The notes: generated by a model from the sequence alone, not told the origin. A DNA stretch of 64,000 bases from Thermanaeromonas toyohensis ToBE (GCF_900176005.1 NZ_LT838272.1:1693587-1757586), one strand, 5' to 3'; positions 26,262 through 46,983 are shown, numbered from the stretch's first letter. Numbers and translations are program-made.

Positions 26262-27236
26262 TTGCTTACTTACGGGCTTTTTGATGGCGTGGCGCGGCGT
26301 GACCACCTGGTGGTTGCTGCCGTCTTGGGGCTCGATGACTATAAGGAAATCTATGGGAAGGGCACTGAAGATTACCTGGACTACCTTATCGAATTAGAAG
26401 ATGCTCTTTTAACGGTTGATCCGCCTGCGAAGGTAGTAAGGGTGCCCTTCCATAGAGAAATGTACAGGAAATGGCTTGAAGGCTCCTCCTGGCGGGATGG
26501 TCCTGAAGCGCGTTCTGCCTGGGCGCTTGAGGTGGTCCAGAATGCGGAGTTATTCGAGCGGCTACGTGCAGAGCGGCCGGTGCTGCCGCGGGCTCCGGAA
26601 GAGGAAAGGGAAGTAATTGAGACCCTGTACCTCCCCTGCCCTTTGGTATGCGAAGAAGAGGCGGATGTTCAGAGGTTGGCGCACCAGCTGGACCCCGAGG
26701 TGCTGGCGAAATTTCACGGTTCTATTCTGAAACACATGCCTGCGGTGCCTCCGTACAGAAAATTGTCTAAACTGCGAGCCCAGGGCGTGGCATTAATGTT
26801 AGGTGATCGTCTGATTGAACCCATAAATGCTTATGAGGTGGAGGATCACTTTGATTCGGCCTTTCTAGGGGACATCAGTACGGCTATAGTGAAAGTTCCT
26901 CGGCATTTCCGCATTAAGCCTCCGGAGCTGGAAATAGAGGTTTATCCGGTGCTAGTCGCAGTGTTATTGCCGGTTGTGCTGCGTGGTGCAGAAGAAGACG
27001 TTGAGTTTCTGGGGGAATGGCTTGAAGGAGAGTTCGGGCCGGAAAGCGTCCTTGTTAAGGAAGCGAGGGAATTTCTGAGGGCGGCAGGTTGGCATGGAGA
27101 GAAGGCGGGTCCGCCCGGGCCCATTCTTACCGCTAGACAGGTGCCGCATTATCTGGAGGCACTGTTTGAGGATGAAGAGGAAGAGCCGCCGGACGACCCG
27201 GGTAGGCGCGGGAGAACGCTTAAACGTGTAAAATAG
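26262..27236 (+). CDS. Uncharacterised 324-residue protein upstream of the giant HTH protein
   Basis: I recognise no family. The chain is acidic with mixed alpha/beta character. The first 60 residues (YGLFDGVARRDHLVVAAV, DYKEIYGKGTEDYLDYLI) resemble neither transposase nor phage proteins. The middle contains LYLPCPLVCEEEADVQRL and VEVYPVLVAVLLPVVL-like hydrophobic strands, and the tail is very acidic, then basic (EDEEEEPPDDPGRRGR). TTG 26262 follows AAGGAGA. The next gene begins 51 bases later, so this protein and the 1234-residue regulator-like protein are probably made together. Confidence 0.65.
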   Translation: MLTYGLFDGVARRDHLVVAAVLGLDDYKEIYGKGTEDYLDYLIELEDALLTVDPPAKVVRVPFHREMYRKWLEGSSWRDGPEARSAWALEVVQNAELFERLRAERPVLPRAPEEEREVIETLYLPCPLVCEEEADVQRLAHQLDPEVLAKFHGSILKHMPAVPPYRKLSKLRAQGVALMLGDRLIEPINAYEVEDHFDSAFLGDISTAIVKVPRHFRIKPPELEIEVYPVLVAVLLPVVLRGAEEDVEFLGEWLEGEFGPESVLVKEAREFLRAAGWHGEKAGPPGPILTARQVPHYLEALFEDEEEEPPDDPGRRGRTLKRVK

Positions 27237-27287: not shown

Positions 27288-30200
27288 ATGAGCGGTGCGG
27301 AAGAGGGTTTGAAAAGGAAGCCTACCGGGAGGCGCGGAAGGCCCGACGCAGAATACCTGGAAGGTATACGCAGGCTTGCCGAAATGTTGGGTGGCCGGAA
27401 GCCGAAGGCAGAGGACTTTTACAGCCCTTTGGCTATCAAAGCCGGTGCACCGTCGATTGGGACCATTTACGCCAGATTTGGGGGCCTTGAAAAGGCGTTG
27501 GAACTTGCTGGAGTGGCAGAACTGCCCCCGGTGCGGGCCCAAGAAATAGAGGAAAGGGAGAAAAGGTTTCAGGAAGCTTTGCGGCGGTTTGAGGGCAGGC
27601 TGTACGCCTTTTTTGATGAGCTGGCAGGTTTGGGGGTAAACAGCCGCCGTTTGGCCAACGAGCTGAAGAGGCGTGGCGTTGTGGTTTTGCGCCGGCTCAA
27701 TATTCCGTATCTGGAAGAAGCCCTGGCTGTGTACTATGGAAATGATGCTGAAAGCAAAAGAGAAATGCGGGAAGTCATGGGGGAGAAGGCCTATGAAATG
27801 TTTGCGAGGTTTGCGCGCGGTGAGGTGCTCGGGTGCGTCGCACGCGATTTGGGGTACGGCAGCCGTACCGGGGCGGTTTCCCTGCTGAGGCGGAAATTCC
27901 GGCGGATGTTCCAGAAGGAGGACGGTAAGAAGAGCGAGCGGAATTACTTACTCGCTAGGCGGGACGGCAGCGGCCGGGCGCTGATAAGAATGTTGCGGCG
28001 CCAACGGGGGATGTCCCAGGTGGACCTGGCCCGCTGTGCCGGTGTCACAGCATTTACGGTGAACCGTGCGGAGCGCGGCGGCCGTGTGTCACCTCAGACT
28101 GCAGAAAAGCTAGTGCAGGCCCTTGGGGTTTCTCTTGAGGAGTGCTTCTGCCCTGCTGGCAGCGATGCATGTGAAGTAATTGCAAGCGCTAAAGGGGCGG
28201 CATGCGAGACTACAGTAAACTCAGATACCTATGAAGCAGAGGGACGACAACGGAGCAGGAGAGGCGAGGGGGAGCAGACGCGCCAGGATGAGGATATTGA
28301 AGATGTTCTGCGCAAGTTCGAAGGTCGGGCATATGTGTTTCTCGACGAACTCAGTGGACTAGGAGCAAGCACAGAGCATGTTAAAACTGAGCTTGAGCAG
28401 CGGGGGATCATTGTTTTGCGTCGGCTCAAAATCCCGTACCTGGAAGAAGCCCTTAGAGTGTATTATGGAGATGGCACAGCAGGCCGGGAGCGGATGCGAA
28501 AGTTCATGGGTGACGAGGCTTACGAGATGTTTGCATCCCTGGCTCATGGAGAGCCGTTAACTCAAATTGCCCGCAGGTTTGGCTACAAGAAGGGCGGCGT
28601 GCTGTACAGTATAGTAGGTAAGAGGCTGCAATGGTTTTTCGAAGGAAGGCGTGCTCAGAGGCAGGAGTATGTTGCCCGGCCAGATGAAGGTGGGGGCACA
28701 GCGATTCTAGCATTAAGACACCATAAGAAGATGTCGCAGGCCGAACTGGCGGAAAAAGCAGGACTATCGCTGGACGCGGTGCACCGCGCGGAGAGAGGCT
28801 TGCCTGTCACGGGCAGCACTGCGGAGCGGCTCGCTGAGGCTTTAGGGGCTTCTCTCCAGGACTGCTTCTATTCACTCCGCAGCAACACGTCCAACGTGGG
28901 TTATACCAGAGCACAGCTAATGCAGGGCATAGATAAAGACGACGTTGGCTGGGGTTTCGGACAGCCTGGAAGGTATAAGAGGAGAAAGGAGCGTCGCCTA
29001 ACTGACGAGGAATGCCTTGAGAGCATACGGAGGCTGGCCAGACTCTTGGGGAATCGCCGGCCACGGTCAAGGGACTTCAACAGCGACCTGGCGAGAGAGG
29101 CACGGGCGCCATGTTTTGCAACGATTCTGAAGCGATTTGGCACTCTGGCCCGGGCGCTGGAACTGGCAGGGGTAGCCGACCTTCCGGTGGGGAATTGTCG
29201 GGTTGTAATGCACAGGAAGAGCCTCGAGCTAGAGCAGGCAATTCAGGGATTGGCTTCCAAACCCTATGTGTTTGCAGACGAGCTGCGCAAATACGGGAGG
29301 AAGCAAAAATTAGTGAAAGAAGAACTGCGCAAGCGTGGAATAGCTGTGTTGCAGCGCATTAATGTACCTGCCATAGAGCGTATTCTTAATTTATTCTTCG
29401 GGAGTGAAGCTCAAGGACTTACCCGTAATGAAATGCGGCAGATCATGGGCGAGCGGGCGTACGAATGGTTTTCAAGGTACGCTGCGGGGGATTCCCCCAA
29501 AAAGATCGCGCTCAGCGCCGGGTGCTCCCGGCAGTGGGTGCATGATACCATAAGGCGCGGCTTAAAGCGCCTGCTTCTACGGTTACGACAGTCGGAAAAC
29601 CTATCAGGAGCCAGCAAGGCATTTAAGGCCAGCACTGGAGGTGAAAATAATATGAATATGGATGGCCTTGAGAGCATGAACATTCGCAGCGGAGTGGCAG
29701 GGCAGGGCGCGCCTGCACTCCACATAGTGGAAGAATGGGACAACTATCCGGTGAAGGGCCACTTGTGGGCAATAGGAGCCGGTGCGGGCGGGTGGTTTTT
29801 CTACCGCGGGCCGAGAAACGGGCTGCAGCTAGAAAGGCCGGAAACAGGTGTCGGGCAGTGGGAGTGGCGTTCGAGCGAAGAAGAGGCACGAATCGCCCGC
29901 GAGGAAGGTTTGAGAACGCTGAAAACCGTCGGCAACCGGCGACTGGTGCCCGGAATTGGCCGCGCTGCCATCGCTTACAACGTTCTTCGCGGTACCAATA
30001 GCCTGGCCCTTAGCATTGCTGTACCGCATGCCGGTGTCCTGGAACTGGTGCTCTTGCAGAGTGGCCCCGGGTTAAGAGATGCTCACCTGAGCCATGAGTA
30101 CCTTCAAGAACTGGCCGACAGGTCTGGCTTAGAGTTGGACAGTGTCTATTCGGATCTGGCGGCGGCAGTAGTAGAAGCTGTGGAAGAAAGCGGCTTCCCG

Positions 30201-30992
30201 CTACCCGGTGTGCTGGAATGGGAAAGGTCAGAAGACGGAGTAAGGTGGAAGGGAGATTTTGCGGGTTACTTGGGTCCGCAAGGTGCTTTGCTGGAGTTTG
30301 CAGGGCCCCTGACCAGTGTGCTTACCCTGGAAGAAGTGGCACGCTTGTGGAGGGTGCCAGCGCGGAGAGTGGCCAAGGTACTGGGGCGTGGAGAGTTTCC
30401 CGGCGGCTTCAGAAGATCCGGAGGCACATGGCTGCTCGAGTGGGATGCCGTATGGGAGGTTTTTGGCCCGCCGTTAGGGCGGAAACGTAAAGACAGCGGT
30501 GCGTACTTTAGAGTGCAGGTTGGAAGCATGGAGCTGGAGTATAAGGGGGCAGAAGAAGTCATCAGAGGTATTGCCGGGCCTGTCGTAGAAAAGGTGCTTA
30601 AAAGTGTTGCCAGCGCGGTAGGGGCCGGAAATCCTGTACAGAGCGTGCCACAGACCGCGGAGGAAGCGCGGCTTAGCGAGATCGAAGCGGTGCGGTGCGT
30701 TGCGGACCGGAAGGAATTCAGGGGTCACAGTGCTGCTTTGATTGCGCTGTATTTTATCGGGACGCCTGCCTCCCCTTCCCAGATTTTTGAGTGGATCACG
30801 GCAGCGGGGTTTCAGTGCACGATGCCCTCGGTTTATTCTTATTTGACTACCCTTAAGGGTAGGGAACTTGTCAAGAAGACCACGTCAGGGCGATATATGC
30901 TTACTGCCCGTGGCCGTGCGGAAGCTGCAGAGCTGATTCAGGATGCGGTGCGGCTGGCGCGTATTCTAAAGGGGAAAGCTCCTGCGCAATAA
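27288..30992 (+). CDS. Giant multi-HTH protein with repeated HARE-like and sigma4-like modules
   Basis: A 1234-residue protein of novel architecture. Approximate order: homing-endonuclease-associated-type repeat (23-80, LEGIRRLAEMLGGRKPKAED); module M1 (90-205, LYAFFDELAGLG to MFARFARGEVLGCVA, the latter like sigma region 4); XRE HTH (225-290, MSQVDLARCAGVTAFTVNR); module M2 (325-440); second XRE HTH (455-520); second HARE-like repeat (560-620); module M3 (635-760, WFSRYAAGDSPKKIALSAG); then a 450-residue C-terminal part with an excisionase-like HTH (TLEEVARLWRVPARRVAKVL) and a winged helix. Everything points to DNA binding; no catalytic motif is seen. GGAGGTG followed by ATG at 29652 suggests an internal start or an old gene fusion there. 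The last 92 bases overlap the convergent dnaE gene. Confidence 0.78.
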   Translation: MSGAEEGLKRKPTGRRGRPDAEYLEGIRRLAEMLGGRKPKAEDFYSPLAIKAGAPSIGTIYARFGGLEKALELAGVAELPPVRAQEIEEREKRFQEALRRFEGRLYAFFDELAGLGVNSRRLANELKRRGVVVLRRLNIPYLEEALAVYYGNDAESKREMREVMGEKAYEMFARFARGEVLGCVARDLGYGSRTGAVSLLRRKFRRMFQKEDGKKSERNYLLARRDGSGRALIRMLRRQRGMSQVDLARCAGVTAFTVNRAERGGRVSPQTAEKLVQALGVSLEECFCPAGSDACEVIASAKGAACETTVNSDTYEAEGRQRSRRGEGEQTRQDEDIEDVLRKFEGRAYVFLDELSGLGASTEHVKTELEQRGIIVLRRLKIPYLEEALRVYYGDGTAGRERMRKFMGDEAYEMFASLAHGEPLTQIARRFGYKKGGVLYSIVGKRLQWFFEGRRAQRQEYVARPDEGGGTAILALRHHKKMSQAELAEKAGLSLDAVHRAERGLPVTGSTAERLAEALGASLQDCFYSLRSNTSNVGYTRAQLMQGIDKDDVGWGFGQPGRYKRRKERRLTDEECLESIRRLARLLGNRRPRSRDFNSDLAREARAPCFATILKRFGTLARALELAGVADLPVGNCRVVMHRKSLELEQAIQGLASKPYVFADELRKYGRKQKLVKEELRKRGIAVLQRINVPAIERILNLFFGSEAQGLTRNEMRQIMGERAYEWFSRYAAGDSPKKIALSAGCSRQWVHDTIRRGLKRLLLRLRQSENLSGASKAFKASTGGENNMNMDGLESMNIRSGVAGQGAPALHIVEEWDNYPVKGHLWAIGAGAGGWFFYRGPRNGLQLERPETGVGQWEWRSSEEEARIAREEGLRTLKTVGNRRLVPGIGRAAIAYNVLRGTNSLALSIAVPHAGVLELVLLQSGPGLRDAHLSHEYLQELADRSGLELDSVYSDLAAAVVEAVEESGFPLPGVLEWERSEDGVRWKGDFAGYLGPQGALLEFAGPLTSVLTLEEVARLWRVPARRVAKVLGRGEFPGGFRRSGGTWLLEWDAVWEVFGPPLGRKRKDSGAYFRVQVGSMELEYKGAEEVIRGIAGPVVEKVLKSVASAVGAGNPVQSVPQTAEEARLSEIEAVRCVADRKEFRGHSAALIALYFIGTPASPSQIFEWITAAGFQCTMPSVYSYLTTLKGRELVKKTTSGRYMLTARGRAEAAELIQDAVRLARILKGKAPAQ

Positions 30993-33900
30993 AGGAAGTG
31001 TTTCCTCTCCTGTGCTGCACTGTGCCCACTACCTTTAGGGGGCCCAGTTCTGGCCCAAAAAGGAACTGGCCGTACTTATTATAGACGTCTTCAAACACTG
31101 TGACGTCCAGCAGCCCTGTTTCGTCTTCCAGCGAAAAGAACACAACTATTTTGCCGCTCCTGGTGGGTGGCCGGTGCGGCCTTACGGGCAGCCCGGCCAC
31201 CTTTGCGCACCTTCCGTCCGGTAACTTCTTCGCCTGGTCGGCAGTCAGATACCCCTCCTTTGCCAGTTTGTCCCTGAAAAAGCTCATGAAGTGGGCATCC
31301 GCGCTCATCCCCAGTATTTCATACTCCAAAAGGCACTTTTCTGCCGCGGTAAAGTCCTTTATGCCTGTGGGCGGCCCCAGTTCCAGGGCGGGCTGTATGG
31401 GGGACGCGGAAACCACTTCCGGCACCCAGGCCAGCAGGGCCTTCCTGTTGGGGTGGAGGGGATCGAAGGCCCCGCAGAGGATGAGGTTTTCCAGGGTGTC
31501 TCTCTCGGTCTGCGTCCTGACATAGAAGTCCCGTAGCGAGCAGAAAGGACCCTTCCGGCGCGCTTCCAGAATTCTGGCCAGCGTATTCTGCCTCATCCCC
31601 TTTACCCGGCTCAAGGGGATGCGGATGGCCGCACCCCCCTCCACGGTGAACCTGTCCGTGCTTGCGTTCACGTCCACCGGGAGGAACTTTATCCCCCTGG
31701 TGCGGGCCTCATTGGCTAGGGTTGCCGGAGAGTAGTATCCCATCGGCTGGCAGTTCAACAGTGCCGCAAAGAAATAGGCGGGATAGTGGGCGGACAGGTA
31801 GGCCGTCCAGTAGGCGGTGGTAGCGAAGGCCGCCGCATGGGCTTCGCAGAAGCCGTAGGAGGCGTATCCCTCCAGGCAGGAAAAGATATCCCGGGCGGTC
31901 TTTTCGTCGATGCCCTTTGCTACGGCCCGCCGCACGAATTCTTCCCCTATCTCCCGCATCTCTCTGAGCGAGCGCGCGTGGGTCATGAGCCTGCGCAGGC
32001 GGTCCGCCTCTCCGGGAGTGAACCCTGCAACCTCACTTGCGATGGCTATGACCTGCTCCTGGAAGAGCACCACGCCGTAGGTCTTCTCCAGAATGGGCTT
32101 AAGGGACGGGTGCAGGTAGGAGATCGGCTCCAATCCCCGGCGCCGGGCAATAAAAGGCTCCACCATGTTTCCTTTTATGGGTCCGGGACGTATGAGCGCC
32201 AGGCTGGCCACCACGTCCTCTATATTTTCGGCTTTAAGCCTGGCCTGCAGAGCCCTTTGCGCCGGGCTCTCCAACTGAAACACTCCTACCGTTTGAGCGT
32301 TGTTGAGCAACCGGTAGGTTTCAGCGTCATCCAGGGGTATGCCTTCGTAGCGGAAGCCCGGATTTACTCTGGAAATACCCCCGGCAGCCTCTTCCAGAAC
32401 GCTGAGAGCCTTCAGAGAAAGGAGGTCGAGCTTGACCAGGCCCAGCTCTTCAACGTCATTGCGGTCAAACTGGCAGATTTTTATCCCCTTAGCGGCCACC
32501 TGCAAGGGGGAAATCTCTACCACCGGGGGGCCGGTGACCACCAGGCCGCCGAGGTGGGTGCCCAGGTGGCGGGGAAAGCCCGCGATGCGGCCGCAGAACC
32601 CGAAAAGGCGGCGGTATTTCTCTTCTTTCCAGGGGCCGCAACGGAGTTCAGGGAAGCGCTCCAGAGCGTCAAAAATCTGGTCTGCTGGTATGTGGGGCAT
32701 GCTTTTGGCTAGACTGTCTATTTCTTCCTCGGAATATCCGAACACCTTACCGAGGTCCCTTACTGCGGACCGGGCCTGGTAGGTCACATACGTAGCGACT
32801 GCTGCTACGTGGTCTTCTCCGTATTTCTTATACACATAGGCGGCGATAAGGTCCCTGTAGCGGGAATCAAAGTCGATATCAATGTCGGGCTTTTCAGCGC
32901 GTTCCAGGCTCATGAAGCGCTCAAACACGAGGTGCCGGCTGATGGGGTCGACTTCCGTGAGCCCCAGGGAGTAGGCCACGGCGCTGGCCCCGGCAGAGCC
33001 GCGCCCCGCACACCGTATGCCCCGGGCACGGGCATAATTGACTATATCCCAGGTGATGAGGAAGTAGTCGGCGAAGCCCAGGCGTGATATGACGTTCAGC
33101 TCTTTTTCCAGCCTTTCTTCGACCCCCGGAGTGATGCGGCCGTAGCGTTCTGCGGCTCCCTTGTAGACCAGCTCCCGGAGAAATGCGTTGGCGCTCTGGC
33201 CGGGCGGTAAAGGAAACCTGGGGGAGAAATTTTGCCTCTCGTCGAGAGGAGGCTGGCACATTTCAACTATGCGGATAGTGTTGTGCAGGGCCTGGGGGCA
33301 GAAAGCAAAGATGCGCGCCATTTCTGCCGGTGACTTCAAGTAGTTTTCGTCGTTCAGAGGTCTTTCCGGGTGAACATCCTCCAGCTTTATGCCCAGGCGG
33401 ACGCAGGTGAGGACGTCGTGTACGGGAAAGTCCTTTCTGCAAGTATAGTGCACGTTATTTGTTGCCACGACGGGTATATTTAGAGCCTCCCCCAGTTTAA
33501 CCAACGCCTGGTTTAAAGCTTTATTCCCAGGTAGAAGAGTATCCTGGAGTTCTAGATAAAAGTTGCTGCCCCAAAGGGCTTTATAGCGCTGGGCTGCCTC
33601 TTTTGCCCTGGCATATTGCCTCCGCAGTATGAGAGAGGGTATTTCTCCCCTGCGGCAACCGGACAAAGCTATCAGACCCTGAGTATGCTCCTCCAGGTCG
33701 GCCCAAGAACACTGTGGGTTACCCCTGGGGTTTGATAGATGCGCGCGCGTAAGGAGGCGGCAAAGGTTGGCGTAGCCACGGAAACCGATAGCCAATAGGG
33801 TGAGATGATACCCACCTTCGAGGGTCACTTCTGCCCCCAGAATGGGCTTGATACCTGCCTCTTTTGCAGCGCGGTAAAACCGTACGGCGCCAGAAACATT

Positions 33901-34035
33901 GAAATGGTCCGTGAGGGCTATGGCCGGCATTTCCAGTTCTGCGGCCTTTTTAACCAGCTCCTCCGGGGAAGCCGACCCGTCGAGGAAGGAAAAATATGAA
34001 TGGACGTGGAGGTGAGCGAAGGCGGGTGCTTGCAT
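30901..34035 (-). CDS. dnaE2: Error-prone-type DNA polymerase III alpha subunit (DnaE2-like)
   Basis: The 1044-residue protein has an N-terminal PHP domain (AHLHVHSYFSFLDGSASPEE, ALTDHFNVSGAVRF), the C-family polymerase core with catalytic EKPDIDIDFDSRYRD, GRGSAGASAVAYSLG and KLDLLSLKALSVLEEA, helix-hairpin-helix motifs, and an OB domain (VVFFSLEDETGLLDV). Its length and lack of a long C-terminal tail match DnaE2/ImuC more than replicative DnaE. It follows DUF6504 and little-finger genes on the same strand, the context of translesion mutasomes, and is divergent from a LexA-like repressor, so damage induction is likely. ATG 34035 has AAGGAGGG ten bases upstream. Its 3' end overlaps the convergent 1234-residue gene. 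Confidence 0.9.
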   Translation of the reverse strand: MQAPAFAHLHVHSYFSFLDGSASPEELVKKAAELEMPAIALTDHFNVSGAVRFYRAAKEAGIKPILGAEVTLEGGYHLTLLAIGFRGYANLCRLLTRAHLSNPRGNPQCSWADLEEHTQGLIALSGCRRGEIPSLILRRQYARAKEAAQRYKALWGSNFYLELQDTLLPGNKALNQALVKLGEALNIPVVATNNVHYTCRKDFPVHDVLTCVRLGIKLEDVHPERPLNDENYLKSPAEMARIFAFCPQALHNTIRIVEMCQPPLDERQNFSPRFPLPPGQSANAFLRELVYKGAAERYGRITPGVEERLEKELNVISRLGFADYFLITWDIVNYARARGIRCAGRGSAGASAVAYSLGLTEVDPISRHLVFERFMSLERAEKPDIDIDFDSRYRDLIAAYVYKKYGEDHVAAVATYVTYQARSAVRDLGKVFGYSEEEIDSLAKSMPHIPADQIFDALERFPELRCGPWKEEKYRRLFGFCGRIAGFPRHLGTHLGGLVVTGPPVVEISPLQVAAKGIKICQFDRNDVEELGLVKLDLLSLKALSVLEEAAGGISRVNPGFRYEGIPLDDAETYRLLNNAQTVGVFQLESPAQRALQARLKAENIEDVVASLALIRPGPIKGNMVEPFIARRRGLEPISYLHPSLKPILEKTYGVVLFQEQVIAIASEVAGFTPGEADRLRRLMTHARSLREMREIGEEFVRRAVAKGIDEKTARDIFSCLEGYASYGFCEAHAAAFATTAYWTAYLSAHYPAYFFAALLNCQPMGYYSPATLANEARTRGIKFLPVDVNASTDRFTVEGGAAIRIPLSRVKGMRQNTLARILEARRKGPFCSLRDFYVRTQTERDTLENLILCGAFDPLHPNRKALLAWVPEVVSASPIQPALELGPPTGIKDFTAAEKCLLEYEILGMSADAHFMSFFRDKLAKEGYLTADQAKKLPDGRCAKVAGLPVRPHRPPTRSGKIVVFFSLEDETGLLDVTVFEDVYNKYGQFLFGPELGPLKVVGTVQHRRGNTSFIAQELSPLEYAPAAPHPESALQLPHGHGQ

Positions 34036-34056
34036 GCTTTCAGGTTCCCTCCTTGC

Positions 34057-34290
34057 TCAGTCGTACCGCCTGTAAAAGAACCAGCGACCGTCTGGAAGGT
34101 CGCGGTAAAGCTCCCACACACCGCTGTCGGTCAGGAACCTCACGAACAGCTTCGGGGTCTCTCCGTTCCACCACTCCCCCGTGTCCTTCCACCTGTCCAG
34201 GACTTCCCTCACCGTATGCCACTGCCCTTTGCAGTTAAACTGCAGGGTTTTTCCCTGTCTGCGCCAGAGAACCCGGTGCACCCGTGTCAC
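34057..34290 (-). CDS. DUF6504-like mutasome accessory protein
   Basis: A 77-residue protein rich in Trp, Tyr and Arg (VHRVLWRRQGKTLQFNC, VREVLDRWKDTGEWW, LFVRFLTDSG, WELYRDLPDGRWFFYRRYD). This pattern matches the small DUF6504-type proteins found beside imuB/dnaE2 in many bacteria, sometimes fused to the Y-family subunit. Its start overlaps the end of the upstream little-finger gene by about 55 bases, and dnaE begins 22 bases after it, so the three form one operon. Function is unknown; a bridging or regulatory role in the mutasome is inferred from gene neighbourhood. Confidence 0.75.
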   Translation of the reverse strand: MTRVHRVLWRRQGKTLQFNCKGQWHTVREVLDRWKDTGEWWNGETPKLFVRFLTDSGVWELYRDLPDGRWFFYRRYD

Positions 34291-34768
34291 GGATAGAGCT
34301 CCTCCACGGGTCGTAAAAGGAGAGCATGAGCTCCCTGCGTGAGGGGGCGAGGTCGGAAGCCCTGGTCAGGATTCCACTGTGGGCACGGGAGGCCGCGGCG
34401 ACCGCCTTGCGGAGGCGGTCCTCCCTTTCAGTGTCTTTACCGTCAAAGATGGCCAGCTGGCTCACGGGGGCCTGGCCCAACCAGTCCAGCGTTACTGAGA
34501 TTTTTTCTACGGGTGAAGCCGCTTGGATGCCGGAAATAATCCTCTGCAGGTGAAGGCAGATGTTTTCAGGCGGCTGTGCCCGGGTAAATTCGCGGGAAAC
34601 TGAGATAGGCCGCTCCTCCGTGTCCAGGCAGACGGTGATGCGCTGCCATACTAGGTTCCGTTCCTTCAGCCAGGAGGAAAGGCGCCTCGACAGGATGCGG
34701 CAGGCGTACAGAAGAGCTTCGAGAGAAGTGGCGCTCCCCAAATATATGTCGGCAGCCACGGGCTCCAT
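34235..34768 (-). CDS. Little-finger-only ImuB/Y-family polymerase-like protein
   Basis: The 177 residues correspond to the C-terminal (little finger) part of Y-family/ImuB proteins: paired strands with TVCLDTEERPISVSREF and ISVTLDWLGQ, then SQLAIFDGKD, a good match to the beta-clamp-binding motif (QLxLF), then RLRKAVAAASRAHSGILTRAS. The palm, fingers and catalytic acidic residues of a polymerase are absent. The gene is not a random truncation: ATG 34768 has GGAGGTG eight bases upstream and lies close to the promoter region. In the known ImuA'-ImuB-DnaE2 mutasome ImuB is a catalytically inactive clamp adaptor; this protein would be a minimal version. Assignment is by motif, not by search. Confidence 0.68.
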   Translation of the reverse strand: MEPVAADIYLGSATSLEALLYACRILSRRLSSWLKERNLVWQRITVCLDTEERPISVSREFTRAQPPENICLHLQRIISGIQAASPVEKISVTLDWLGQAPVSQLAIFDGKDTEREDRLRKAVAAASRAHSGILTRASDLAPSRRELMLSFYDPWRSSIRDTGAPGSLAQTGKNPAV

Positions 34769-34894
34769 GTCATAAACACCTCCGGCAGGTACGCTGGAGT
34801 AGACCGGGACGAAAAGCTCTTTTCACGAAAAGTAAACAGCAGTATAATTAGGGTAGGTGGTGTAGCCAGTTGTATGAAGCAGGAAGGCAATACC

Positions 34895-34906
34895 TAGTGT
34901 ACACTA
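34895..34906. promoter_or_regulatory. Candidate operator of the S24 repressor
   Basis: TAGTGTACACTA is a perfect 12-base palindrome in the 170-base divergent region between the repressor gene and the mutasome operon. It lies 30 bases before the repressor start, where it could control both directions. A leftward TATAAT-like element (ATTATAC on the minus strand near 34841-34848) is nearby. Confidence 0.55.
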
Positions 34907-34937
34907 TCCGTAGACAAGAGTCAAGGGGGGATATCAT

Positions 34938-35711
34938 CTGGAGAAAGACACTGGGAGCCAGGCGCTGGGCCAGTACCTGGCGGCCAGGAGGGCGGCGCGC
35001 GGTCTCACCCTGCGCAAGCTTTCAGCACTCATAGGCCGCGCTCCTTCTACCATCCAGGCCTGGGAGCAGGGCAGGCGGATGCCATCGCTGGAGGACCTGG
35101 TGGTCCTGGCCCGCGTCCTCGAGGCGGACGTGGAAAAGCTGGTGTACCTGGCTGTGCCAACTGAGAGCGATGCCCGCAGGGAACTGAAACAGGCGCAGGC
35201 AGCGGGCGGCAAGGAGGGTGAGCGGCAGGCGGTCAGGCTGCGCCAGCTCCTCGCCGCCAGGCGGGAAGCCCGGAGGCGGAAGGCTTTGGAACTGCTGAGG
35301 CCGGTACCCTCTCTGCGCCGGGTTCCCTTCGCTGGCGATGTTGCCGCGGGACCGCCGAAGCTGGCCATCGAGCAGCCCGGTGAATACACTGACGTCCTTG
35401 ATGCGGCGGTAGACTACGCCCTGGTGGTCAGAGGGGATAGTATGGTTGGGGCCGGCATAGAGGACGGTGATACCGTGTGGGTGAGGCGTGATGAGGCGGC
35501 CAAGCACGGGGACACCGTGGTGGCGCTTATTGACGGTGAGGAAATAACCGTCAAACACCTGGTGGAAGAAAACGGGCACTGGTTGCTCCGGGCCAACAAC
35601 CCGTATAAGGATTATCCGGATATACCCCTCGGGCCGCGAGACGAGATTATCGGGGTGGTGAAATGGGTAGTTAAAGCGCCCGGCCCCCCGCCGGTACGGC
35701 CGGTGAAATGA
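34938..35711 (+). CDS. LexA/CI-like self-cleaving repressor (XRE HTH + S24 peptidase)
   Basis: The N-terminal XRE helix-turn-helix (LTLRKLSALIGRAPSTIQAW) is followed by an Arg/Ala-rich linker and an S24 peptidase domain. The latter has a cleavage-type AG in VPFAGDVAAG, the catalytic Ser in VRGDSMVGAGIEDGD and the Lys in GEEITVKHL. Such repressors cleave themselves when bound by RecA filaments, releasing SOS genes. An ATG at 35079 would delete most of the HTH. The frame is open to a CTG at 34938 with AGGGGGG seven bases upstream, so a rare CTG start (257 residues) is proposed. It is divergent from the little-finger/DUF6504/dnaE operon and probably regulates it. Confidence 0.82.
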   Translation: MEKDTGSQALGQYLAARRAARGLTLRKLSALIGRAPSTIQAWEQGRRMPSLEDLVVLARVLEADVEKLVYLAVPTESDARRELKQAQAAGGKEGERQAVRLRQLLAARREARRRKALELLRPVPSLRRVPFAGDVAAGPPKLAIEQPGEYTDVLDAAVDYALVVRGDSMVGAGIEDGDTVWVRRDEAAKHGDTVVALIDGEEITVKHLVEENGHWLLRANNPYKDYPDIPLGPRDEIIGVVKWVVKAPGPPPVRPVK

Positions 35712-36910: not shown

Positions 36911-36962
36911 AAATTCGTGCTGAATAACCGGAAATTGCCGGTTATGGGTGAGGACGCGGACT

Positions 36963-37628
36963 ATGGAAAAGAGAGCAAGAGGCTGGACGAAAGAAGAATG
37001 TGTGGCTGCTCTAAAAAGGCTTTCGGCCGCACTTAGCGGGTGTCGCCCCACAACCAGCGACTTGGTGGGTAGAGTGGGTCGAGAGGTGGGGTGTCCTCCG
37101 GAGTGGGTGATACATGAACTGTTCGGTTCCTGGAAGGTAGCGATCAGGGAAGCGGGTCTCGAAAGTCTGCCGACGGTAAGGGAGCAGGCGCGGCAGGCAG
37201 CGGTAGAAGAGCTTCGTTTGTACTTTGATAGGGTGTTGGAAGGAAAATCCTTCCTGTTTCGTGGCGAAGCACATGAGATTGTAAAAAAAGCGCCCGGGAA
37301 GCTTTATGTACAGAGCAAACGGCGGATGCTGAGAGGAGCGTGCCGGGAAAAAGGGATACGCTTGCTGAACCTGCCCTATGACCGGGATATTCGCGCTGTG
37401 GTGTCGTGGCTGCTGGGATGCCCTGCGGAAGGGGTCCTGCCCGAGAAAGAGAAGGTGGAGGAGGCCCTGGGTGAGGCTGCGCTACGGGTACTGAGAAGGA
37501 TTATGGAGGTCGGGAACTTAAAGGCTGCAGCGCAGGCGGAGGGCTTGAAGGTTTTTCAGGCCCGGCGCATGCTCGTAGAGGCGTGCAGGAGGGCAGTAAG
37601 GTTCCTGGCACGGACTCGGCATGGGTAA
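36963..37628 (+). CDS. HARE-like repeat plus sigma4-like module protein (intact)
   Basis: A 221-residue member of the local family. Residues 9-65 form the homing-endonuclease-associated-type repeat (AALKRLSAALSGCRP to LFGSWKVAIREAGLE, in variants shared with the 1234-residue protein). Residues 80-215 form the module domain (KSFLFRGEAHEIVKK, then REKGIRLLNLPYDRD, then ALGEAALRVLRRIMEVGNLK, then an HTH-like end). It lacks the XRE domains. A sequence-specific DNA-binding role is inferred. ATG 36963 is chosen with GTGAGG upstream. It sits between DUF72/helicase remnants and the intact helicase; its closest relative is the disrupted gene at 40098. Confidence 0.7.
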   Translation: MEKRARGWTKEECVAALKRLSAALSGCRPTTSDLVGRVGREVGCPPEWVIHELFGSWKVAIREAGLESLPTVREQARQAAVEELRLYFDRVLEGKSFLFRGEAHEIVKKAPGKLYVQSKRRMLRGACREKGIRLLNLPYDRDIRAVVSWLLGCPAEGVLPEKEKVEEALGEAALRVLRRIMEVGNLKAAAQAEGLKVFQARRMLVEACRRAVRFLARTRHG

Positions 37629-37748
37629 TGTTTGGTCGCGGCTGCTGGGCCTCTGCAGGCGGACGGGAGGTTTGTAGTAGGTAAAGCCAGTTACTAATCC
37701 ACTAGAGAATTGCGTGCAGCTAACGGAAGCGGGCGGAAGGGATGTCTA

Positions 37749-40097: not shown

Positions 40098-40728
40098 ATG
40101 ATAGGGGGAAAGAAGGTGTACACCGCCGGAAGCGCTCCACGTGAAGCACGCATGTCCTCACCCTTGAGACCTGCGGAAAGCCCAGGGCAGAAGGCGTGGA
40201 CGAAAGAAGAAAGCCTGGCTGCATTAAGAAGGCTATCGGAAATGCTGGGCGGAACACGCTCCATAGTGTGCGATGTGCGGGGGAAGCTCGGGCGTCAAGC
40301 CGGGTGCGCCTCAATAGAAGCAATTCGGAGGCTTTTTGGCTCTTGGGAGACAGCACTGGAGAAAGCTGGCTTAGCAGGATTACCGACAAGAAAATCACCC
40401 GAGAGAGACATTGCCCTTAGAAGCCTCCGGGAGTATTTTGAGCATCTGCTACACGACAGAACATTTCTTTTCTATGGCGAAGGAGCAGATATGGTAAAAA
40501 AGCTCCGGGTGTTGTTCCCGTTCAAACTCGTCGACAAGTATTGGCCGAGATATGCAAGAAGCAAGGGATACGGGTGTTTGGCCTGCCCGCCAGCAACGAC
40601 GTAGGTACGGTGGTATCATGGCTGCTGGGACGTCCGGCTGAGGGGATATTGCCAGATGCGGAAGAAATAGCAAAAGGCCTGCAGCCCGATGCTTTACGGC
40701 TTTTTAGGCGTGCCGTCGAAACTGGTAG
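40098..40728 (+). pseudogene. 5' part of a HARE/sigma4-like gene, frameshifted and split by the IscB element
   Basis: The first part encodes the family repeat (LAALRRLSEMLGGTRS to LFGSWETALEKAGLAG) and RTFLFYGEGADMVKK. Near 40530-40540 the frame shifts, after which the neighbouring frame continues the alignment to the intact paralogue (LAEICKKQGIRVFGLP, VVSWLLGRPAEGILP, LRLFRRAVETGS). At 40729 it is cut by the IscB element. The gene is therefore broken twice. Confidence 0.78.
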
Positions 40729-41010
40729 TGTCAACTACCCCCTACTGAAGTAGGGGGCATGCGGCGAAGAGCCGTGTGAGCCGGTGCTGTCCCTATGGGG
40801 CAGCAATCCGGCGGTGTTGACACGCTCCCGATGAACTCCGGGAGGCACGCAGGCCTACAAGAATGGTGTTAGTCCCAGCCGGTTCGCGGCACTGCTGTGC
40901 CCGGTCCTTCCGGTTTACGGGGGGCCGGCCGTTCCCGGGGGGAGGTGCACGGGGCGGGCGGTTTTACCGCCGGCAACCCGCCGCAAGGCGGAGTATCCCC
41001 TATGATGGGG
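40729..41010 (+). ncRNA. Predicted IscB omegaRNA scaffold
   Basis: About 280 non-coding bases lie between the element's left end and iscB, where IscB systems encode their omegaRNA. Strong pairing is visible: TGTCAAC at 40729-40735 with GTTGACA at 40816-40822 as a closing stem, the hairpin 40738-40757, CCCTATGGGG near 40793, and GGGCGGGCGG...CCGCCGGCAACCCGCC near 40953-40983. The guide would be the chromosomal sequence just upstream, ending CCGTCGAAACTGGTAG at 40728, so the RNA would be programmed against the uninterrupted version of the host gene. Confidence 0.7.
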
Positions 41011-42794: not shown

Positions 42795-43517
42795 GTGGTT
42801 GATAGCCGCGTTGTGATGTTTCCCCTGCCGGAGCGGAAACCACTTACTCGGGTGCTGGACGCTTTTCTTGATGAGAGGGAGAAAACATTGAGCCGGCGTA
42901 CTGCCGCCAAGTACGGGCGGCTTGTTTCGTTATGGCAACGTTACCTGGACCACCATGGATATTGCCACTTGCTACCCGTCGAAAAAGTTCTATGGAAGAG
43001 GCTCCGGAAGGCTGGGACAGAAATTACGGAAACGTTCGGAGCTCAACTGTTGGTCCGCAGTTCCGTGCCGTTTCTCGGCGAGTACTTTCTAAGGAAAGTG
43101 GGTTCCGACCTCGAATTGGTGGAATATGCAGGAACTATCGTACGAAAACTTGCGAGGTGGCTGGCGCAGGAAGGTTTTGTTTCTTCCCGGGCCGCTAGCC
43201 TATTATGGGACGTGGGGAACGCGGCAAGGCGCCAGTTGGTACCCGCGTTCCTTGCCCAGGCGTCAATTAATATACAGTACGATGTCTGGTACGAAATACC
43301 GGTATATAGGGCGAGAGGCGAACTGTACGAAATCCTTCCTGGGATTCTCAGGTTTAGGGTAAAAAATGCAAGAGTAGAGGTAGCGCTTCCGGAATGTGTT
43401 ACCGAATACTGCCGCCCCGGATGGGTTTTTACGCTCAGGTTGCTTCCCAAAGAGCACACCTTTGGGGTAGTTGGTTGCGATAACGTAAACATTTTTGGCT
43501 GGGCGAATACCCCTTAA
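42795..43517 (+). CDS. Protein with integrase-like core-binding domain, no catalytic domain
   Basis: The 240-residue protein begins with a segment resembling the SAM-like core-binding domain of tyrosine recombinases (RVLDAFLDEREKTLSRRTAA, then YGRLVSLWQRYLDHHGY, then FLGEYFLRKVG). It then continues with a beta-rich domain (YDVWYEIPVYRARGELYEI, LRFRVKNARVEVALP). None of the recombinase R-H-R-H-Y residues are seen. It could be a DNA-binding accessory factor or a diverged integrase. Its stop overlaps the convergent tyrosine recombinase gene by four bases. GGGGAAGGAG precedes the start. Confidence 0.55.
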   Translation: MVDSRVVMFPLPERKPLTRVLDAFLDEREKTLSRRTAAKYGRLVSLWQRYLDHHGYCHLLPVEKVLWKRLRKAGTEITETFGAQLLVRSSVPFLGEYFLRKVGSDLELVEYAGTIVRKLARWLAQEGFVSSRAASLLWDVGNAARRQLVPAFLAQASINIQYDVWYEIPVYRARGELYEILPGILRFRVKNARVEVALPECVTEYCRPGWVFTLRLLPKEHTFGVVGCDNVNIFGWANTP

Positions 43518-44383
43518 TCGTCATCCGTTTCTACTGCCCCGGCAAGTTCTTCGAAGGTCGGCCTGGTATACTGGGCGGTGGTGTTCAGGTTTTCGTGCCC
43601 CAACAGGGCGGCCACCTTCACAAGGTCTACCCCCTTGTTAAGCAGGTTAGTGGCACATGTATGCCTCAGCACATGGGGCGTCAGGTGTCCTATTCTGGCC
43701 CAGTAAGCGTACTTTTTTAGTATCTGTTGGACACCGCGAGCAGTGAGCGGTCCCCTCTGGCCTAGAAAGAGGGGGCCGCTTTTTCTTTCCCCAAGGTATT
43801 CCCTCAAGGCACGCCTCACGTTTGACGGTACCGGAACTTCACGGTACTTGTCGCCTTTACCCTTCACAGCGAGCCTTCCGACTCGCTCTTTAATTTCCAG
43901 GTCCTCGACCCTGAGTTTGACCAGTTCCCCTACCCTCAGCCCGCAGAACAAAAGCACATATACCAGCGCCTTGTCTCTTGCGTTACCGCTGCGCTCAACG
44001 GCACGCAGGAGAGCGTTTTGTTCCTTCCGGTTCAGGGCTCTTGGAGCGAGCTTTTCCTGCCTGACGCGCTTGGGTAGGCGCGGGAGGCGGCCAATTTGCC
44101 CAGTATCCTGGGCCCAGGAGAGCCATTTTTTAAGCGCCGCCAGCCGGCGGTTGACCGTACTCGGCTTCATGCACCGCATCAGGTACTGGCGGTATTCTGC
44201 CAGATCCAACTCGGTCACCAGCTCCGGCCGGGGGGATTCGCCGGTGGTCTGCAGGTACCACTGCGCGAAGTCCTGGAGGTCGAAGTAATAGGCCTCCATA
44301 GTGTTTTCCGAGAGGTGCTGGCTGACGAGGAAGTCCAGAAAGGGGGCAAAAACGTTATGCGAACAGTTTCTTTGCTGATCCAC
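43514..44383 (-). CDS. XerC/D-type tyrosine recombinase
   Basis: A 289-residue recombinase with an N-terminal core-binding domain (LSENTMEAYYFDLQDFAQW) and a complete catalytic domain: Arg in CGLRVGELVKL, Lys in KGKGDKYREVPV, HxxR in TPHVLRHTCATNLL, His in LLGHENLNTT and nucleophile Tyr in AQYTRPT. Size and spacing match XerC/XerD or integrases of small elements. It is convergent with the 42795 gene and 500 bases from a serine recombinase, so two recombinase classes mark this end of the island. Whether it resolves dimers or integrates an element cannot be told from sequence. Confidence 0.9.
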   Translation of the reverse strand: MDQQRNCSHNVFAPFLDFLVSQHLSENTMEAYYFDLQDFAQWYLQTTGESPRPELVTELDLAEYRQYLMRCMKPSTVNRRLAALKKWLSWAQDTGQIGRLPRLPKRVRQEKLAPRALNRKEQNALLRAVERSGNARDKALVYVLLFCGLRVGELVKLRVEDLEIKERVGRLAVKGKGDKYREVPVPSNVRRALREYLGERKSGPLFLGQRGPLTARGVQQILKKYAYWARIGHLTPHVLRHTCATNLLNKGVDLVKVAALLGHENLNTTAQYTRPTFEELAGAVETDDD

Positions 44384-44688: not shown

Positions 44689-44937
44689 GTGAACTGCTCA
44701 GGTTCGGGATATATTAAAAAGGAAGGGAAAGATCACGTGGTTTACGTCCGCAACTACGGGGAAATTACGGTGGAAAACAAGTTTCCCCGGAACGCCCCGG
44801 ACGCGGAGGAAAGGCTGGAGGCCTTCCGGCGCCTTGCCGCCCAGATGCTGTGGGAACAAACTGGAGGAACAAGCGATGCGCGCAGCAGCTCTCTACCGGG
44901 TGAGCACCAAGAAACAGGTGAAAGCCGAAGAGGATAG
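44689..44937 (+). CDS. Small protein overlapping the serine recombinase start
   Basis: An 82-residue protein from GTG 44689, with GAAGGGGGTG upstream. The first 60 residues look folded (SGYIKKEGKDHVVYVRNYG, ITVENKFPRNAPDAEERLEA, FRRLAAQMLWEQ); the last 20 are low-complexity and overlap the recombinase gene by 62 bases. No family is recognised. Small genes coupled to large serine integrases can encode recombination directionality factors or repressors, so that role is a candidate based on position only. Confidence 0.55.
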   Translation: MNCSGSGYIKKEGKDHVVYVRNYGEITVENKFPRNAPDAEERLEAFRRLAAQMLWEQTGGTSDARSSSLPGEHQETGESRRG

Positions 44938-46576
44938 TATACCCGTCCAGCAGCACCTGCTGCGGGAATACGCGGCTGAGCGCGGCTGGGAGCTTGTCGC
45001 CGAATATATAGAGCCAGGAGTATCGGCCTACAAGCTGTCATCCCTGGAGCGGGACATCCTACAGGATGCCCTGCGTGATGCTGAAGCCGGAAAGTATGAC
45101 GTGCTCCTCATTTTCAAAGCCGACCGGCTCAGCCGCAACAGCTTTGAGTACCCCATGGTGCTGTGGCGCCTGCACCAGGCAGGAGTAGAGGTAATTGCCG
45201 TGGCCGATGCGCCCGGCGGCCGGAAGCTCAACGTTGACGACCAGATGGAGAAGCTCCTCCGCTTTATCGAGGGGTGGCAGGCGGAGACGGAAAGCAAGAA
45301 CACCTCAATCCGCGTTTCCCAGGCGATGCTCGACCTGGCCCGCCAGGGCAAGTGGAGCGGCGGCAGGCCGCCTTACGGCTTCCGGCTGTCTTCCAGTAAA
45401 AACGGGCTGCCCCTGGAAATAGACCCGAAGGAAGCTGAAGTCCTGAAGGAAATGGTCCGCCTCTATTTGGAAGAAGGGGTAGGGAGCAAAAAAATAGCGC
45501 GGATACTTAATAACCGCGGTATAAGGACAAGAGAAGGTAAACTATGGCGGGATGAGCGGGTAAGGGATGTGCTGCAAAACCCTATTATAGCCGGGTTACC
45601 CGCCTATAACCGTACCAGGCCCGGCAATACCCCTACATCACGGTGTCGAGTTAGAGACCGGTACGACCTCAATAACCCGGAGATAATCATCCCCAGGGAC
45701 GAGAATGGTAACCCCAAGCCAGTTAAAGAGTATGTTATAATTCCCCTCGAAACCTGGCTTAAAGTGATGCAAAAGATGAAAGCCTCAGCCCAGAATCAGG
45801 AGCCTGATGCCAGGGCCCTGGATAGCCCGGCGTTGCTTACTGGTTTCCTCAAGTGTGGCTATTGCGGGCGGGGTTTTATTTCTAGTAAGAAGAATAGGGC
45901 AAAGGTAAGCAGGCCTAATGGTAAGACCTATGTCTATGAGCGTGCCTGTTACCGCTGCATAACCCACGCCAGGATAGGCAAGGAATTTTGCCCCGGACAG
46001 GGAAGTTACTCCCAGAAGAAGATAGATTCCATCTTTTTGAGTGAACTCAGGACGTTTCTGTCCAGCCTTGACCTGGGCAACCTGGAGAAATATATCGACA
46101 GCCGCCAGCAATTTACTGTTATGAGGCTCCAGAAGCAGATAAGCCAACTTGAGGCCGAGCTGGAAAAGGCCAACCGGCGGTTAAAGAACTGGGTGGAGCG
46201 ACTGAATCAATATTTTGCTGATCCTGCTAGAAGCCTTTACAGTGAGGAGCTCATGGCAGGTGAAATAAAAAGAGCACAGGAGGAGATAGCGCTGCTGGAA
46301 AAGCAAATAGCCGAGGCGAAGGCCGAACTGAATGCCTGTACTTACGAGCGAGAGAAGCTGCAGCAGTTCGCCAGGATGGCTCCACGGTGGTTCGAAATTT
46401 TTGTTGAGGCCCCTGTTCCAGTCCAGAAAAGAATGCTCGCCCAGATAATTGATAAGGTTACACTCTGGAAGGACAGGCTGGAGATAAGCTACAGAGTGGA
46501 CCTTACTCAGTTTGCCCGGACGACTGGAGAAGAAGGCCACGGAACAGTTGAACTCCGTGTGGCAGTGTCTCTATAG
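44876..46576 (+). CDS. Large serine recombinase (site-specific integrase)
   Basis: A 566-residue recombinase. The resolvase domain has the catalytic serine in LYRVSTKKQVKAEED and DRLSRNSFEYPM. It is followed by the recombinase domain (GGRPPYGFRL, VGSKKIARILNNRGIRTREG), a zinc ribbon (FLKCGYCGRGF...CYRC...FCPGQGS) and a C-terminal coiled coil (QKQISQLEAELEKANRRL). Such enzymes insert and excise large elements between short att sites without host factors. ATG 44876 has GGAGG upstream; a frame from 44834 lacks one. It ends 35 bases before the severed tepA fragment, so tepA is the likely integration target. Confidence 0.92.
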   Translation: MRAAALYRVSTKKQVKAEEDSIPVQQHLLREYAAERGWELVAEYIEPGVSAYKLSSLERDILQDALRDAEAGKYDVLLIFKADRLSRNSFEYPMVLWRLHQAGVEVIAVADAPGGRKLNVDDQMEKLLRFIEGWQAETESKNTSIRVSQAMLDLARQGKWSGGRPPYGFRLSSSKNGLPLEIDPKEAEVLKEMVRLYLEEGVGSKKIARILNNRGIRTREGKLWRDERVRDVLQNPIIAGLPAYNRTRPGNTPTSRCRVRDRYDLNNPEIIIPRDENGNPKPVKEYVIIPLETWLKVMQKMKASAQNQEPDARALDSPALLTGFLKCGYCGRGFISSKKNRAKVSRPNGKTYVYERACYRCITHARIGKEFCPGQGSYSQKKIDSIFLSELRTFLSSLDLGNLEKYIDSRQQFTVMRLQKQISQLEAELEKANRRLKNWVERLNQYFADPARSLYSEELMAGEIKRAQEEIALLEKQIAEAKAELNACTYEREKLQQFARMAPRWFEIFVEAPVPVQKRMLAQIIDKVTLWKDRLEISYRVDLTQFARTTGEEGHGTVELRVAVSL

Positions 46577-46620
46577 CCTTATTATACCAACCTTGAAGAG
46601 TTTGTAGCTACTTGGGTGCG
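46577..46620. other. Probable att junction at the right end of the integrated element
   Basis: Between the recombinase stop (46576) and the resumption of tepA homology at [11 protein letters not shown] (from 46612) the frame of tepA is closed by TGA at 46594. Serine integrases usually lie next to their att site, so the crossover core should fall within these few dozen bases, in the codons for the GGxSIGVP segment of TepA. Confidence 0.55.
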
Positions 46621-46983
46621 ATAGGGGTGCCCATCGCCGTAGCAGCAAACCATTCCTTTATTGCCGCAACGGCTACCATGACCATACATCCCATTCGCCT
46701 TACAGGCCTGGTGATAGGTGTGCCGCAGACCTATGAATACCTAGATAAAATGCAGGACCGGGTAGTTCGGTTTGTTACCGAGCATTCCCGGATTTCGGAG
46801 GCCAAATTCCGGGAGCTCATGTTCCGGACTGGCGAATTGGCCCGGGATATAGGAACAGTGCTGGTAGGGCGAGATGCTGTAGAAGTAGGATTGATCGATG
46901 AAGTGGGGGGAATCTCCCAGGCAGTAAACTACCTGCGTAAGCTTATTGCTGAAGGTGCTCCAGGGCCAGGCGGTTTACATTAG
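46612..46983 (+). pseudogene. tepA: 3' half of tepA (ClpP/SppA-like translocation-enhancing protease)
   Basis: The 123 residues match the C-terminal half of Tep[66 protein letters not shown]. TepA is a ClpP-fold protein of about 245 residues; the N-terminal half with the oxyanion and serine regions is missing. The fragment starts at the recombinase border, and ylzJ and ftsK follow in the conserved order, so this is the native locus split by an insertion. The fragment alone should be inactive unless the element excises. Confidence 0.85.

Follow-up and report, generated by a model that had tools for sequence, protein, structure and literature searches.

A 1234-residue protein with nine candidate DNA-binding units on a tepA-integrated element of Thermanaeromonas toyohensis ToBE

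Layout of the 1234-residue protein

The gene at positions 27288-30992 (+) of the window (the whole stretch of 64,000 nucleotides of Thermanaeromonas toyohensis ToBE DNA that was analysed) encodes a single chain with nine candidate DNA-binding units, which may be a multivalent, sequence-specific DNA-binding transcription regulator of the ~350-kb element that carries it (probability of about 0.45). We infer DNA binding, the transcriptional role and the targets of the protein, as well as the fusion event from which it may derive. An ORF scan gave an uninterrupted frame of 1234 codons with an ATG start, as the sequence-only reading had reported, and the modules follow the order HARE1-MH1-XRE1-MH2-XRE2-HARE2-MH3, then an acidic beta-rich region, HTH_59 and a winged helix:

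27288..30992 (+): the 1234-aa ORF, a continuous coding frame with its own start and GGAGGT at 12 nt
27342..27515 (+): HARE1 (PF18780, HNH_repeat), residues 19-76, from Pfam
27540..27917 (+): MH1, a middle domain plus HTH, residues 85-210, from segment alignment
27984..28142 (+): XRE1 (HTH_3), residues 233-285, from Pfam
28293..28661 (+): MH2, residues 336-458, with no preceding HARE, from segment alignment
28701..28859 (+): XRE2, residues 472-524, from Pfam and segment alignment
29001..29174 (+): HARE2 (PF18780), residues 572-629, from Pfam
29202..29603 (+): MH3, residues 639-772, from segment alignment and the HARE2-MH3 model
29652..30302 (+): residues 789-1005, acidic and beta-rich, assigned to no known family, from Pfam, charge and model
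30309..30467 (+): HTH_59/excisionase-like HTH, residues 1008-1060, from Pfam
30657..30971 (+): MarR/PadR-like winged helix, residues ~1124-1228, from AlphaFold and Foldseek

The nine units (two HNH_repeat, two XRE, three MH, HTH_59 and the winged helix) agree with an earlier count of at least eight. In Pfam, the two HNH_repeat domains gave a whole-protein E value of 5.8e-18 (65.4 bits as compared to a curated cut-off of 26), and HARE1 and HARE2 each passed this cut-off singly. The two HTH_3 domains (E 3e-21, 75.7 bits vs. 23) assign the protein to the XRE family regulators, and most of the PHROGs families that match them are annotated as transcription regulation. HTH_59 was matched with an E value of 6.8e-7 (28.8 bits vs. 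27); as a sign of an excisionase or a recombination directionality factor (RDF), this match is only a hint of fold. The two HARE-like repeats, the two XRE domains and the excisionase-like HTH that had been read from the sequence were all recovered in this way.

No nuclease domain, HNH or other, was found in the protein with Pfam, NCBIfam and PHROGs, and no catalytic family with these libraries and a segment profile search, in line with the earlier statement that a catalytic domain is lacking; a match to a known enzyme family, which the sequence-only reading had raised against itself, did not appear. An enzyme or a defence system was rejected, since there was no catalytic or defence-specific match and the padloc matches were to XRE only. 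Phage and ICE regulators of the XRE type resemble the protein in its two HTH_3 domains, whereas here these are embedded in a nine-unit chain in which no S24, metalloprotease or sensor partner was found.

HARE and MH segments carry a basic net charge (+3, +11, +10 and +15 for residues 1-82, 83-225, 560-640 and 640-785, respectively), and residues 786-1005 carry a net charge of -12. The domain content, free of catalytic families, the annotation of the PHROGs matches and the basic segments all argue for a regulator. A single chain carrying many spaced heads, whose residues 1-785 show no obvious sensor, would also suit an architectural protein that bridges or silences foreign element DNA (nucleoid-associated, xenogeneic-silencer-like or partition-related) and uses its heads for avidity. 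We consider such a role unlikely, XRE and MarR folds being usually those of proteins that bind specific operators.

Duplication and selection

The internal copies are old duplications kept by purifying selection. Segment alignments of the MH copies gave pairwise identities of 55/115, 40/123 and 37/99 (shuffle z of 47, 29 and 27); HARE1 and HARE2 share 36 of 60 residues (z 35), and XRE1 and XRE2 29 of 59 (z 27). Between copies, ps is 0.67-0.79, which puts synonymous change at or close to saturation, whereas Ka amounts to 0.33-0.73; the modules, at least over residues 1-772, were therefore retained by purifying selection after duplication, which speaks for a regulator. Codon statistics, with further long ORFs of the element as training set, favour this frame in every segment of 27288-30992. 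On these grounds (coding statistics, and Ka well below Ks between copies), a frame artefact was rejected for residues 1-785. The simplest history would be that a HARE-MH-XRE module was duplicated and one HARE was then lost.

Fold of the MH units and of the C-terminal winged helix

The MH unit consists of about 120 residues, a middle domain with two short strands being followed by an HTH. The HARE2-MH3 model, built with a five-row alignment (pLDDT 82, pTM 0.57), is all-helical except for these two strands. Its last helices superpose on region 4 of SigD with an rmsd of 1.5 over 54 columns, but with E > 1. The unit HTH also superposes on phage sigma/ECF proteins (rmsd of 1.1-2.7 over 50-70 columns, E above 0.1 throughout), and LuxR-type response regulators match it with similar scores in the structure search. 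No meaningful sequence-level match to the unit was obtained among solved structures. In Pfam, none of the three MH copies matches Sigma70_r4. The one Sigma70_r4 match in the protein falls on XRE2 (472-503) and was for this reason rejected as support for a sigma assignment. TIGR02937 reached 26 bits at residues 726-765, below its cut-off of 42.9, and neither Pfam nor NCBIfam gave a sigma region 2 family. Since Sigma70_r4 is not matched, E stays above 0.1 and LuxR-type proteins fit as well, "sigma-4-like" describes a fold and does not assign a family. The three copies of an HTH-ending domain proposed earlier are real and homologous, but their sigma-4 label, which the sub-cutoff TIGR02937 match and the SigD superposition support, expresses a resemblance of fold only; likewise, the idea of a sigma-like regulator is weakened, as it comes down to the fold similarity of one helix-turn-helix, region 2 is missing and the profile test fails. 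With sigma-70 and ECF factors the protein would share the tetrahelical HTH fold in the C-terminal part of the modelled unit, and differs in lacking region 2 and any MH copy that matches Sigma70_r4.

The C-terminal half was run in AlphaFold without an alignment and the result was poor save for the winged helix, which was predicted confidently (pLDDT 80-92 over most of the core) at about residues 1124-1228 and matched MepR and other MarR-family proteins with a Foldseek probability of 1.00, bearing out the winged helix of the sequence-only reading. In Pfam, this end of the protein stayed below the cut-offs (PadR 14.1 bits vs. 27; HTH_45 17.6 vs. 25.5). The superposition of the unit HTH on sigma region 4 and phage sigma/ECF proteins, together with the MarR match, favours a regulator; against it, the unit HTHs fall short of Pfam thresholds.

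An internal start at Met789

The best Shine-Dalgarno/start pair of the ORF is internal and surpasses that of the ORF itself (GGAGGT, 12 nt):

29637..29654 (+): Shine-Dalgarno GGAGGTGA, 7 nt from the in-frame ATG at 29652 (Met789), from the SD/start scan

The ORFs of at least 200 aa in the region contain 1238 internal ATGs, of which only 2 attain an 8-base match. Met789 is a probable second start or an ancestral gene boundary at about residue 780. Because the strongest ribosome-binding site is internal, it seems that a triplicated HARE/XRE regulator and a separate 446-aa regulator have been fused here; the gene of the latter would have begun at Met789, a start that is perhaps still used; both products, full-length and from Met789, may therefore be made from 27288-30992. 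Among the 398 genomes of the phylum, the part after Met789 has no homolog beyond short HTH matches.

The rarity of such a site, along with the change from a basic to an acidic chain past Met789, is what one would expect also if two separate genes had been read as one, namely one for an N-terminal regulator (residues 1-~785) and one for a 446-aa regulator that is translated on its own; the open frame across both would then result from a recent stop loss or a sequencing artefact. This alternative concerns the product, and so overlaps and is compatible with the other functional readings. It appears somewhat unlikely: the ORF contains no stop at all, the coding signal is unbroken across the junction, the genome is a single contig and no separate homolog of either half was found in the 398 genomes. 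The earlier reading had itself foreseen that the frame might join several genes. Rejected for residues 1-785, this concern is partly in play at about residue 780, where the best start pair lies.

Surroundings of the gene

A DnaE ORF converges on the 1234-aa ORF, with a tail-to-tail overlap of 92 bp (30901-30992). At window positions 30901-35711, this DnaE-type polymerase is accompanied by a short ORF (34235-34768) that is Y-family-C-like, with an IMS_C score of 14.5 bits that stays below the cut-off, and by a divergent XRE-S24 (LexA-like) gene, the XRE part of which lies upstream of the listed ATG start; the set is reminiscent of an SOS mutasome cassette carried by the element. Upstream, the gene at 26262-27236 encodes a 324-aa protein of no known family, with relatives in 13 other genomes, one of which is 71% identical (G037) and another of which lies near a related tyrosine recombinase (G265). 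A conserved operon with this gene was rejected, as its relatives have unrelated neighbours, and the lack of a conserved partner there counts against a regulator.

No convincing iteron array, tandem repeats or conspicuous operator was found around the gene, and a promoter scan near it did no better than shuffled sequence. The missing operator weighs against a regulator, and the missing iterons weigh against a replication initiator or copy-control protein that would bind them in an excised form of the element. Multi-HTH replication initiators exist, dnaE is the convergent neighbour, and the element may replicate as a plasmid because it carries DnaE, DnaN and ParB; nevertheless, the protein has no Rep-family match, and we regard this role as very improbable.

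The element in tepA

The island location proposed by the sequence-only reading proved correct, as the gene lies in the right part of a ~350-kb element integrated by a large serine recombinase in a ClpP-like gene next to ftsK, which we take to be tepA from what is known of ClpP-like genes beside ftsK/spoIIIE. The 5' half of tepA is at genome 1332975-1333301 and the 3' half starts at window 46612. The right end lies within the window:

43514..44383 (-): tyrosine recombinase, with 44% identity to that beside the HARE-MH gene of Clostridia bacterium 41_269, from comparison
44834..46576 (+): large serine recombinase that closes the element on the right, from family match and comparison
46607..46631 (+): right attachment site, with arm GCTACTTGGGTGC and core ATAGGGGTGCC, from junction comparison
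46612..46983 (+): 3' half of tepA (ClpP-like), from comparison with the 5' half

The core ATAGGGGTGCC is common to both junctions, with inverted GCACCCAAGTAGC arms on either side, and the joined flanks restore the tepA reading frame as in intact relatives. A third site at 1390413 divides the insert into two tandem elements, A (57.1 kb) and B (349.8 kb), the coordinates of this locus being window 46607-46983 and genome 1332975-1390455 and 1740193-1740569. A large serine recombinase closes each element, the two being 94% identical. The same point of tepA is occupied in G006 (26 kb), G014 (78 kb), G001 and G051, in each case with a related serine recombinase, and tepA is intact in other relatives; the site appears to be a recurrent integration target. 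As in the skin, SP-beta and gin elements, a host gene is interrupted, a large serine recombinase sits at the end and joined flanks restore the frame (compare PMC5595907, PMC4191935), whereas here there are two elements in tandem, of ~350 and 57 kb, and developmental excision is a candidate property. By this analogy, the insert could be a developmentally excised gene-interrupting element. No paper on tepA-integrated elements was found in the open-access literature.

Element B carries a Gp3-like RDF (1651037), a TraG-like ATPase, an M23/SLT hydrolase, ParB, DnaN, NrdD, FliF and FlhA; no relaxase was identified in it. It would be an ICE or an integrated megaplasmid, and native chromosomal DNA may lie inside it. 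A cluster of six tRNA genes (genome 1421069-1423352; 15070-17353 of L073) includes two tRNA-Asn(GTT). Flagellar genes occupy genome 1543-1576 kb (L079-L081), with FliF and FlhA identified by Pfam and FliG-, FlhB-, FlgE- and FlgK-like genes assigned by reading. At least six RRXRR/IscB-like ORFs are present in the element (window 41021-42583; genome 1424040, 1498689, 1502085, 1506636 and 1657166), that at 1506636 being 77% identical to a copy in Clostridia bacterium 41_269.

The size of the element, its GC content (48-64% per 10 kb, mostly above 52%, vs. ~47% in the left flank) and the ParB and actin-like genes carried by the two elements could fit the architectural role set out above. The known silencers Lsr2, H-NS and MvaT are small oligomers that bind AT-rich DNA; the element, on the contrary, is GC-richer than its flanks.

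Relatives

Searches of phages, plasmids, viral contigs and GTDB contigs gave neither a match to the full-length protein nor a second copy of its layout; there is therefore no comparative support for the whole chain, which counts against a regulator. The layout, said earlier to be without a described counterpart, has none in the libraries searched, and no paper on such a protein was found in the open-access literature. A profile of the unit, run on the 398 genomes of the phylum, matched convincingly in no genome but this one and that of Clostridia bacterium 41_269 (G051), and partially in G306 and others. Single-unit HARE-MH relatives are rare, two being in the window, one elsewhere in element B and one in Clostridia bacterium 41_269:

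36948..37628 (+): HARE-MH, 226 aa, from Pfam, unit profile and comparison
40098..40753 (+): second single-unit relative, frameshifted (a 168-aa frame continues in another frame), from unit profile and translation
genome 1437710-1438822: wHTH-HARE-HARE-HTH protein, 370 aa, from the unit-profile match
L055 8001-8834: HARE-HARE-MH of Clostridia bacterium 41_269, 277 aa

The frameshifted copy has probably decayed. An MrfA/YprA-like DEAD helicase gene (37710-40016) sits between it and the 226-aa HARE-MH gene. The protein at genome 1437710 has, like the 1234-aa protein, HAREs followed by a sigma-4-like HTH, and differs in its N-terminal winged helix and single set. That of Clostridia bacterium 41_269 (30-32% identity to units 1 and 3) keeps the HARE-MH order, with two HAREs, one MH, no XRE and no C-terminal half. 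Its gene starts 12 nt past a tyrosine recombinase gene adjoining the integration site and is followed by DUF2325, RRXRR-HNH (IscB-like), T4SS pilin, PrgI and VirB4-like genes, an arrangement that looks ICE-like.

The HARE-HTH domain of eukaryotic ASXL proteins belongs to a family different from HNH_repeat. With PF18780 proteins the 1234-aa protein shares two clear HNH_repeat domains, and is unlike them in lacking an HNH or other nuclease and in combining the repeats with XRE and MH; an HTH-HNH-like protein with HNH_repeat, its HNH being assigned by reading, is encoded at genome 1900019, outside the element. The single open-access paper found to mention PF18780 includes it among many repeat families that were modelled by contacts and, in the passage concerned, lists it with no confident experimental match (PMC8078820).

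The relatives on element B and behind the recombinase of Clostridia bacterium 41_269, with its pilin, PrgI and VirB4-like genes, are consistent with a regulator. The same 12-nt spacing could point to an accessory or directionality factor for the recombinases of the element, as could the location of three of the HARE genes less than 20 kb from the right attachment site, close to a tyrosine and a serine recombinase, and the resemblance of HTH_59/HTH_17 to excisionases. This function seems decidedly unlikely, given that the element already has the Gp3-like RDF, that the nearest recombinase is 12.5 kb from the 1234-aa gene and that the element relatives in G006 and G014 contain no HARE genes. Gp3-type factors act on serine integrases.

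Proposed function and significance

A regulator is favoured over the architectural, recombination-accessory and replication roles, which are all less likely. According to the scheme that we propose, a small HARE-MH regulator, like those that persist as single units elsewhere in the element and in a related ICE-like element, would have been joined to an XRE domain, and the resulting HARE-MH-XRE duplicated to give HARE-MH-XRE / MH-XRE / HARE-MH; the downstream 446-aa regulator gene (acidic domain, excisionase-like HTH and winged helix) would then have been fused in frame, its product perhaps still made on its own from Met789. With several weak heads on a single chain, the protein could recognise one long composite site or link several sites, and would repress or activate genes of the element (transfer, excision, the nearby SOS-type cassette) with high specificity. 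A bolder and improbable extension is a one-chain enhanceosome, in which all nine heads jointly recognise a long composite site, or bring several promoters together, and switch the ~350-kb element between the resident and the transferring state, with the short Met789 product as antagonist or co-factor. The likely Met789 boundary, the derivation of the protein from duplicated modules, its single-unit relatives and the ~350-kb tepA element go beyond the sequence-only reading.

Known bacterial regulators usually bind DNA through one or two heads and owe their specificity to oligomerisation. Nine candidate heads derived from HARE-MH-XRE duplication would be another route to the recognition of long sites, with HNH_repeat domains used here outside nucleases. 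The element itself, with its ~350 kb, a serine integrase and its RDF, a TraG-like ATPase, a tRNA cluster, and replication and flagellar genes, is worth study.
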